From IMG/VR virus record IMGVR_UViG_3300037502_003333, positions 1 to 20,199 of that record: a stretch of 20,199 bases of DNA; one strand, given 5' to 3'. The DNA is from a virus. Under the pieces are notes generated by a model, which had not been told where the DNA came from, ran no database searches, and worked only from the letters and a program-made list of their open reading frames with translations. Each line of letters starts with the position of its first letter. Position 1 is the stretch's first letter. The position numbers and the translations under genes are program-made. Shown one piece after another: positions 6,052-8,790 of the stretch.

Positions 6052-6477
6052 TCATCTCCACCCAATTACTTCCGCAATCGCGTAAATAATTTCATTTCTC
6101 CATCGAAAAACCGTAGCCCTTCCAACATTCAACGCCTCTGCAATCCCATCCATGGTTAAGCGCTGTGGTTTTGTCCAATATTTTAGCTTCACCAGTTTTT
6201 TATATTCATCCGGAAGCTGGCGGTACACTTTATCAATAGCTGCTGTGATCTCTTCCATCCTTTGCAATCTTTTATGTGTCAACAACCGGTTAGCTGTTCG
6301 CTCTGTCGGAGAAGAAGGGAGATTACTTCTCCCGCCACCGACATTTTCATCTTGCTCCGTTTTTTCAAACAGTATTTCCTTTCGCAATCTTTCAATCTCT
6401 CTCAATGTTTCGTGGTAATAATACAGCTCTGCTTCAATATGCTTGAACGTCTGTTTCTTTAACTTAGTTATGGTCAT
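6052..6477 (-). CDS. RinA-family late gene transcriptional activator
   Basis: This 141-residue protein matches the RinA family of phage regulators in length and pattern. It has an N-terminal helical region (FKHIEAELYYYHETLREIERLRKEI), a linker with GGGRSNLPSSPTERTANRLL, then AIDKVYRQLPDEYKKLVKLKYW. It ends in a σ70-region-4-like HTH, LTMDGIAEALNVGRATVFRW. In staphylococcal phages RinA activates transcription of terS and the late operon. Here the gene sits immediately before a promoter facing the terminase genes, which supports the same job. The start ATG at 6477 overlaps the helicase stop by four bases. It is intact, with a strongly basic C-terminal helix. Confidence 0.88.
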   Translation of the reverse strand: MTITKLKKQTFKHIEAELYYYHETLREIERLRKEILFEKTEQDENVGGGRSNLPSSPTERTANRLLTHKRLQRMEEITAAIDKVYRQLPDEYKKLVKLKYWTKPQRLTMDGIAEALNVGRATVFRWRNEIIYAIAEVIGWR

Positions 6478-7861
6478 AATCGCGCCTCCTCCTGCACTTT
6501 CTCGATTCTTGCTTTCAACGCTTGCAACAAACGTTCTTGCGTATCAGTTTTTTCTTGTAAAGCAGCCATCACATCTTCATCCACTCCGCCTTCAACCGTC
6601 AAATGGTGAATGATAACTTTTTCAGTTTGCCCTTGACGATGAAGACGTTTGTTGGCTTGTGCATATAGTTCCTGGCTCCATGTCAGTCCGAACCAAATGA
6701 TGTGATTTCCGCCTTGTTGCAGGTTTAGTCCATATGCTGTACTGGCTGGATGGGCTAGTAATATATCAATCTGTCGGTTATTCCAATCTGTTTCATCTTG
6801 CGGCGTCTTCAATTCTCTAACCCTTAATTTTGTTTTCTCTAACGCTTTCAACAGTCGATCCTTGTCGTGCTGAAAGTTGTAAAAAACTAGTGCCGGTTTC
6901 CCGTTCAGCCCTTCAATCAATTCCATAAATGCTTCAATCTTGCAATCGTGGATGTTCACGATGTTTCGTTCTTCGTCGTAAACAGCACCGTTACATAGTT
7001 GCAGCAATTTGTTTGTCAACACTGCCGCCGATCCTGCGTCGATCGTTGCCCCATCCACCTGAAGAAGCATTTCCTTTTCAAGTTTCTCATACGCTTTTCT
7101 TGCTTTATTGTCTAGGGTAACCAGTATCGTGTTATACATGATGTCCGGCAACTCCAAATAATCTTCGGCTTTCATACTGACGCATATATCACCAATCAAA
7201 TTTTGAATCGCTTGATCTGCCCCAGGCTTTGGAGCATAGGTGAAAACGCGGTCTCGGTTTCGTTGATCCGGCTCGAAATACCGTTCGCGAAAACCGGTTA
7301 TTCGTTTCCCTAGACGTTGCCCACCATCCAACAAGTACACCTGCGCCCACAGATCCAACAATCCGTTTGGTGCTGGCGTACCAGTCAAACCGACTATTCG
7401 TTTGATGTGTGGCCGGACATTTTTCAGTGCCTTGAACCTCTTTGCCTGGTGATTTTTAAAACTGCTAAATTCATCGATCACCACCATATCAAACGGCCAT
7501 TCGTTCCGGTAATAGTCCACCAACCAAGGAACGTTTTCGCGGTTGATAACGTAAATGTCGGCTGGTGTGTTAAGCGCTCGGACCCGTTTGGTTTTTGACC
7601 CTAAACAGATCGAAAAACGTAACAGCTGTAAATGATCCCACTTTTTCGCCTCTCTCACCCAGGTGCTTTCTGCAACCTTTTTCGGTGCAATGACCAAAAC
7701 CTTGTTTATCGCGAATCGATTGTATTTTAAATCGTTGATGGCAGTTAAGGTGATGGCTGTCTTACCTAACCTAAGCCCATATCCAGAAACAGCCCAAGTG
7801 CCGGTGACGTAATTAACCGGTTGATGCAATACTTTTGGTAGCTGTGTGGAATGAACTTCAT
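6474..7861 (-). CDS. SNF2-family helicase, frameshifted at the P-loop
   Basis: This is an SNF2/DEAD-like ATPase common in phage replication modules. From ATG 7861 the reading gives the normal family start, MKFIPHSYQKYCIN, with the Q-like motif and GLFLDMGLG, then hits TAG at 7766-7768. The rest (KTAITLTAINDL, VVIDEFSSFK, GLTGTPAPNG, ANKRLHRQGQ) continues in another frame to 6474. The break is a tandem copy of TTAGG (7765-7774) inside the G-L-G-K-T codons; removing one copy restores a 460-residue protein. The long open frame can also be read from a TTG at 7889, overlapping the VRR-NUC stop. That gives 471 residues with an unrelated N-terminus but still GLRLGKT. So the gene is either inactive, altered, phase-variable, or carries a sequencing error. 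Confidence 0.85.
7765..7774 (-). repeat. TTAGG tandem duplication in helicase P-loop
   Basis: There are two back-to-back copies of TTAGG on the minus strand (7770-7774, then 7765-7769), where the family needs only one (GGC TTA GGT AAG ACA for G-L-G-K-T). The extra five bases shift the frame and bring in a TAG stop. Confidence 0.85.
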
Positions 7862-7885
7862 TCGGCATCACTCTCCCTTCTGTTC

Positions 7886-8167
7886 TCAATTCTTGGTGAC
7901 TTCCGTAATAAAATCGTCTACGCCTTCTTTGCTGTCAATCACTCTCACATCACAGCCGAAAGAAGCTATTACATTCATCTGTTTCACTTGAAGTGGTCTC
8001 GGTTTTTTCCCAGGTGCTTTCAACTCGATGAAGAAAATTTTGTTGCCCGGAAAAAGAACTAATCGGTCTGGAACTCCGTCATTTCCGGGTGATTCGAACT
8101 TATACGCTTTTCCCCCTGCTTTTCTTACCTGATCTCGTAAATAGATCTCGATCTCTTTTTCTCTCAA
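7886..8167 (-). CDS. VRR-NUC domain nuclease
   Basis: This 93-residue stand-alone VRR-NUC protein is a PD-(D/E)XK-type nuclease module. The core is clear: SPGNDGVPDRLVLFPG with D34, then KIFFIELKAPGKKPRPLQ with E48-x-K50 and Q60. It is typical of phage replication regions, directly before an SNF2 helicase, and the pair may process branched DNA together; that link is inferred. The start is TTG at 8167 with GGAGG about eight bases upstream, placed right after the stop of the previous gene (8171). The stop TGA overlaps the alternative TTG start in the helicase frame. Confidence 0.9.
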   Translation of the reverse strand: MREKEIEIYLRDQVRKAGGKAYKFESPGNDGVPDRLVLFPGNKIFFIELKAPGKKPRPLQVKQMNVIASFGCDVRVIDSKEGVDDFITEVTKN

Positions 8168-8493: not shown

Positions 8494-8790
8494 GTAACGT
8501 TGTTACCTTTCTATCACGCGCGTATAGAGTATATTTCATTTAGGCGTATTAGGCTGTAAATACTCCTTCTAATTTCTCTAATCTCTCTATTTATTTATTT
8601 CTCTATATATTAAAGGTTACAAAGGTTACATATAATAATAATTAATAAATAAATATAGATATATCAGGGGTTTTTAGATGTAACCTTGAACGTAACCTTG
8701 TATGTAACTTTTAAAAAGAAGGTTACAATTTCCAAATTTTACAAGGTTACAAAGTTACAAGGTTACATGGAAGGTTTCGCCGAAAGTTAC
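8494..8790. repeat. Iteron array in AT-rich gap; candidate replication origin
   Basis: The 322-base gap between the primase/helicase gene and the next gene holds about twelve copies of GTTAC or its complement GTAAC, mostly as AAGGTTACAA. Starts of the 5-mer: 8494, 8502, 8617 and 8626 (offset 9), 8680, 8692 and 8704 (offset 12), 8722, 8746, 8754 and 8762 (offset 8), 8786. Orientation changes along the array: 8494 and 8680-8704 read GTAAC, the others GTTAC. Between 8630 and 8665 the DNA is almost pure A/T, a plausible unwinding element. Phage origins often lie beside the initiator gene. There is no convincing protein-coding frame in the gap. Confidence 0.65.

Follow-up and report, generated by a model that had tools for sequence, protein, structure and literature searches.

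Inteins and group I introns interrupt conserved motifs that are endonuclease targets, and the interruption, which makes the target immune, is neutralised during expression. A different kind of interruption is found in gene 60 of phage T4; to our knowledge, hardly any other bypass site has been accepted in bacteria or their phages. In gene 60, a GGA take-off codon is followed by UAG and a 50 nt insert, and this insert possibly gave protection from the nuclease by which the 5′ homing endonuclease was spread (PMC5009743); mobA is the homing endonuclease linked to the gene (PMC2988022). A review published in 2016 knew of no natural in-frame stop-hop (PMC5009743).

The window analysed here, the whole 20,199 nt stretch of IMG/VR virus record IMGVR_UViG_3300037502_003333, encodes an SNF2 helicase on its minus strand, with matches above cut-off to PF00176 (SNF2-rel_dom, 1.2e-17) and PF00271 (Helicase_C, 1.3e-5). 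An earlier note on this DNA had proposed that a TTAGG duplication breaks the gene inside its P-loop, and our reading of the sequence confirmed both the duplication and the frame break: minus-strand positions 7774-7765 read TTAGGTTAGG, a 5 nt tandem duplication (plus strand CCTAACCTAA, 7765-7774), and the event lies at 7774-7764, within the interval given by that note. On this strand the gene reads ATG AAG TTC ... GAT ATG GGC TTA GGT TAG GTA AGA CAG. Translation from ATG 7861 yields MKFIPHSYQKYCINRLITSPALGLFLDMGLG and then meets TAG (7768-7766) directly after ...DMGLG; as well as this translation, the N-termini of relatives bear out the claim that this is the normal beginning of the family. According to the ORF list, the remainder of the helicase (GKTAITLTAINDLKYNRFAIN..., from GKT onward) lies in a different frame from the N-terminal part and is open to 6474. 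The window site carries no slippery heptamer of the form X XXY YYZ for −1 frameshifting, the shift site being C TTA GGT, and no tRNA genes were found in the window. The features of the locus are listed in Table 1.

Table 1. Features of the interrupted SNF2 locus in the window
Feature	Position	Strand	Basis
First SNF2 frame, 31 codons MKFIPH...DMGLG plus TAG	7766..7861	−	Translation; same family N-terminus in relatives
Proposed take-off codon GGT, second Gly of DMGLG	7769..7771	−	Sequence; GGY in 117/119 related stop-type alleles; hop predicted
TTAGGTTAGG, 5 nt tandem duplication	7765..7774	−	Sequence; identical ten bases in L002, L063, L106 and others
TAG stop adjoining the take-off codon	7766..7768	−	Translation
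Proposed landing codon GGT, perfect match to take-off	7764..7766	−	Sequence; landing-codon statistics; hop predicted
SNF2 remainder, 429 codons from P-loop Lys AAG 7763-7761, then stop	6474..7763	−	ORF list; Pfam
VRR-NUC-like nuclease gene, directly upstream of SNF2	7886..8167	−	Pfam VRR_NUC, E=1.6e-4, slightly below the curated cut-off

Upstream of these genes, seven copies of AAGGTTAC occur on both strands at 8613-8766, in the intergenic region between a VapE-like gene and the small gene upstream of the VRR-NUC gene; the expectation is 0.5 copies in the whole window. The cluster is possibly a replication or regulatory site.

To collect relatives, we searched viral contigs and GTDB genomes at the protein level, using the portion of the helicase after the break as the query, and obtained 159 loci. 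Pattern scans for GGT followed by a stop, for other Gly codons and for longer gaps were added, and near copies were collapsed. The result was a set of approximately 129 distinct phage SNF2 alleles in which insertions of 1-17 nt fall at a few shared P-loop codons, mostly with a GGY codon followed by a stop. Insert lengths were 1 nt (three alleles), 2 nt (one), 4 nt (30), 5 nt (41), 6 nt (37), 7 nt (eight), 8 nt (two), 9 nt (two), 10 nt (three), 15 nt (one) and 17 nt (one). The locus L002, in an independent contig with different upstream DNA, has ten bases identical to those of the window, and L082, which is 92% identical downstream, reads GGC TTG GGT TGA GGT AAG, a 6 nt insertion with an in-frame TGA stop. 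The identical ten bases, the L082 version and the approximately 129 alleles together far exceed what a chance origin of the window duplication would give. We found no earlier report of this family of inserts in the openly licensed literature, and such a report may exist.

Paenibacillus phage Pd_22F and Fusobacterium phage phiPaco are among the more distant cases, and in their public annotation the helicase has a late start or is split; together with NatCom_29429 and Montesquieu, these are complete phage genomes with the same or equivalent inserts. Among host genomes, the pattern was matched in 9 of 395 genomes of one bacterial order and 3 of 391 of another class, several on multi-megabase contigs, although not all of these matches are confirmed as SNF2 and two (G332 and G642) look unlike the family. 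One genome, G005, has two further GGT-stop P-loop pattern matches (L418 and L419) besides its L114 locus. A sequencing or assembly error, which the earlier note had entertained, has nothing in its favour beyond the oddity of the sequence itself and, because inserts of the same kind recur in independent contigs, complete phage genomes and large host contigs, is so very unlikely as to be negligible.

On the tree of 280 genes, interrupted and intact genes are intermixed, with at least 44 changes between the two states, and eight different inserts occur within one set of proteins that are at least 70% mutually identical. Duplications account for a minority of the inserts (CTC GGT TGA C, for example, is not one); the window and other TTA alleles have an exact two-copy repeat. 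This exact tandem repeat is what would recommend a reversible phase-variation switch driven by slippage of TTAGG, another suggestion of the earlier note, yet there are only two copies, the insert is constant in close relatives, and most inserts in the family are not tandem repeats at all. Among the loci compared, we saw neither a copy-number difference between near-identical relatives nor the near-identical pair with and without the insert that would be expected of an on/off switch, and we regard this explanation as extremely improbable. Two other candidate elements were considered and set aside: the relatives fetched contained no long intron or intein at the P-loop site, the longest insert being 17 nt, and an integron-like core site (GTTRRRY) was, by eye, not kept in many alleles.

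The early end of the first frame, after 31 codons, could also mean that the window helicase is a pseudogene created by a recent inactivating mutation. However, insertions are found at the same site in many lineages without any other lesion, and the interrupted state is stable among close relatives. The C-terminal part is open for at least 400 codons from the P-loop Lys in 155 of 157 interrupted genes, compared with 163 of 167 uninterrupted ones, and the median dN/dS is 0.17 for interrupted pairs versus 0.12 for uninterrupted pairs. Between the window and L002, the C-terminal parts differ at 116.5 of 274 synonymous sites and 19.5 of 986 non-synonymous sites; the N-terminal parts of the window and L082 are separated by 11 synonymous changes and one non-synonymous change. 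Given the open C-terminal parts and this purifying selection, the interrupted SNF2 genes are not pseudogenes. As many interrupted lineages keep both halves at full length under purifying selection, a fresh inactivation of the window helicase, as the earlier note had considered, is very unlikely. The window insertion belongs to a widespread type of insert that has been maintained in evolution.

Selection on the N-terminal part also bears on the possibility that the helicase is made from an overlapping ORF of 471 codons, starting at TTG 7889 or ATG 7868 and reading GLRLGKT at the P-loop. We agree with the earlier note that this ORF has an N-terminus foreign to the family. Both the window and L002 have its frame open, but in 114 of the 129 interrupted alleles the equivalent frame is closed no more than 90 nt upstream, and the conserved N-terminus MKFIPHSYQ... 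lies in the other frame, under purifying selection. Homologues that naturally start with LPKVLHQPVNYV, which would have meant that there is no frameshift, are thus not the rule in this family, and we consider expression from the longer ORF highly improbable.

Because the insert lengths fall in all three frames (4, 5, 6 and 7 nt are all common), neither readthrough nor one fixed frameshift suffices to restore the helicase, and both were ruled out. A Gly codon adjoins the stop in 119 of the 129 alleles and is GGT in 96, GGC in 21, GGG in two and GGA in none, that is, GGY in 117 of 119; the main scan required GGT plus a stop, which partly imposes the frequencies of both, whereas the HNH-anchored set described below carried no such requirement. 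In intact genes, the second Gly codon is GGA in 32, GGC in 32, GGG in 23 and GGT in 16. When the landing codon is taken as the codon just before the resume codon, it makes at least two of three pairs with tRNA-Gly(GCC) in 117 of the 119 stop cases: the match to GGY is full in 50, at two positions in 67 and at one position in two (L068 and L336), and the third base is never G in these 119 alleles. A hop with re-pairing on this codon would yield an uninterrupted DMGLGKT in every stop-type allele. In the window, both codons are perfect GGT.

Landing codons that begin with bases other than GG are where the third position is most constrained. For gaps of 4-5 nt, the third base of the landing codon is C or T in 48 of 50 non-GG landings versus 10 of 31 GG landings (p=6e-10), and in phylogenetically independent pairs the rule holds by about 7:0 (median p 0.016). 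Non-Gly landings on AGY or GAC make up 29 of the 69 alleles of the first tally and many of the 4-5 nt alleles overall; for gaps of 7-10 nt, a full GGY landing is present in 11 of 13. We found no signal of mRNA structure, folding near the site being the same as in shuffled sequences and intact genes. The codons before take-off are also constrained: the first Gly codon is GGC in 93 of 101 interrupted genes versus 21 of 103 intact genes, and the Leu codon is TTA, TTG or CTC in 98 of 101 versus 49 of 103 (in the window, these codons occupy 7777-7772). This constraint could be a cis signal for recoding or, alternatively, a trace of endonuclease resistance.

Other re-pairing layouts are rare. L145 and L332 read CTT CGG C, L359 reads GGG TAA and L377 reads CTC TAG GT; these interruptions of 1-2 nt resemble +1 or +2 shift sites rather than hops, and L145, from a metagenome assembly, could be an error. 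The allele of phage Montesquieu, a virulent phage that forms large clear plaques (PMC9331655), reads ATG TAG CTA ATC.

Comparison of the genes upstream of SNF2 in relatives revealed a small HNH gene (HNH_3) directly upstream of many interrupted SNF2 genes, between the VRR-NUC gene and SNF2; the window does not have it. An HNH gene lies directly upstream in 19 of 77 interrupted loci versus one of 121 intact loci, and the single intact case resembles a different HNH type. Starting from the HNH gene instead, we obtained 60 distinct downstream SNF2 genes, of which 46 carry an insert (L349 being counted as an insertion after reading by hand), 13 have an altered P-loop and only one has the canonical DMGLGKT, a motif present in 112 of 147 uninterrupted genes of other loci. 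The stop adjoins the take-off codon in 40 of the 46 HNH-linked inserts, leaving six without an adjacent stop. L355 and L394 have HNH-linked inserts of 15 and 17 nt, both starting GGC CCA, in which no stop adjoins the Gly codon.

The altered P-loops of HNH-linked genes without an insert include DCGLGKT, ECGLGKT and DCGLGKS, as if these genes may have escaped an endonuclease by substitution. Altered P-loop residues of this HNH-linked, insert-free kind were noted in L338, L351, L356, L360, L376, L379, L388, L403 and L404. Among the few pairs examined for presence or absence of the HNH gene and for co-conversion (L051/L052 and window/L002), L051 and L052 are nearly identical and both carry the insert, and the HNH gene is present in one only; in the window and L002, a short stretch that begins slightly upstream of the start codon and ends slightly beyond the P-loop is nearly identical, and the flanks on either side have diverged. 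Loci of this family show an HNH gene adjoining its putative target gene, carriers that nearly all lack the canonical target, and presence/absence polymorphism with a co-conversion tract. The HNH link, the altered targets, the L051/L052 pair and the window-L002 tract are the marks expected of a homing endonuclease that targets P-loop DNA. A profile search for HNH remnants in loci without the gene gave one weak partial match only, in L187. The tail of the gene upstream in L002 resembles HNH tails, by eye only.

Our data are consistent with a model that combines a ribosomal hop with HNH cleavage and immunity, both of which we infer from sequence comparison. We consider it probable that the insert is an inherited, transmissible immunity device in a homing-endonuclease target, and that full-length helicase is still made by ribosomal bypass. 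The peptidyl-tRNA-Gly (anticodon GCC) would release GGT 7771-7769 while TAG occupies the A site, and the same tRNA-Gly would re-pair with GGT 7766-7764, five bases on; translation would then resume at AAG 7763-7761, giving a continuous DMGLGKT. The HNH_3 endonuclease encoded upstream of SNF2 in many relatives probably cuts uninterrupted P-loop DNA, and an insert or a residue change in the P-loop would make its carrier immune to the HNH protein. The window lineage may have kept the insert as a leftover, without the HNH gene, and we propose that it persists because bypassing keeps the helicase gene working.

Immunity could also exist without bypass, if the helicase were dispensed with, if an intact gene were regained by recombination, or if the insert were removed at the RNA or DNA level. 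The strong HNH link and the recombination tracts at the site need no recoding. However, the take-off and landing rules follow tRNA pairing, a stop adjoins the take-off codon in most of the HNH-linked inserts, and purifying selection has acted over the long term while the genes were interrupted; we therefore judge immunity without bypass unlikely. In its general form, the stop-hop model would state that short natural stop-hops evolve repeatedly under pressure from homing endonucleases that target a catalytic motif, so that one gene family comes to hold dozens of independent recoding sites under a simple rule (take-off by tRNA-Gly GCC before a stop, with at least two pairs on landing). We favour this broader statement with somewhat more reserve.

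If the model is true, more than 100 short sites with comparable lengths, codons and phylogeny would open bypassing to statistics and simple reporters. It would also mean that endonuclease pressure can create recoding sites, that bypass inserts join introns and inteins as a third general device of immunity, and that many phage helicases are truncated or split by gene callers, including those of Pd_22F, phiPaco, Montesquieu and NatCom_29429.

Set against the described systems, the SNF2 site shares with T4 gene 60 a Gly take-off codon followed immediately by a stop, a matched landing codon (in the window), and an insert in the gene of an essential DNA enzyme with a homing endonuclease gene nearby and a proposed protective role. 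However, the gap is 50 nt in gene 60 and 5 nt in the window (1-17 nt in the SNF2 family), gene 60 has a take-off stem-loop and a 5′ stem-loop whereas the SNF2 site gives no stem-loop signal, and the SNF2 family has landings that often make only two of three pairs, many different inserts and a target in the P-loop. As the long structured gap is absent, we do not file the SNF2 site as a gene-60-type element. We infer that it works like the short stop-hop so far known from synthetic constructs (PMC5009743). In the synthetic E. coli stop-hops cited in that review, the P-site tRNA likewise leaves the pre-stop codon and re-pairs with a matching codon a few bases on; the SNF2 sites differ in being natural and conserved. 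The byp inserts of Magnusiomyces mitochondria (PMC5009743) offer a parallel in their many short bypassed inserts and in landings that sometimes rely on two-out-of-three pairing, whereas the SNF2 sites belong to bacteriophages, fall in a single motif of one gene, and have a stop codon in the A site and a link to an endonuclease. In contrast to inteins and group I introns, the SNF2 inserts contain no splicing element and are only a few bases long.
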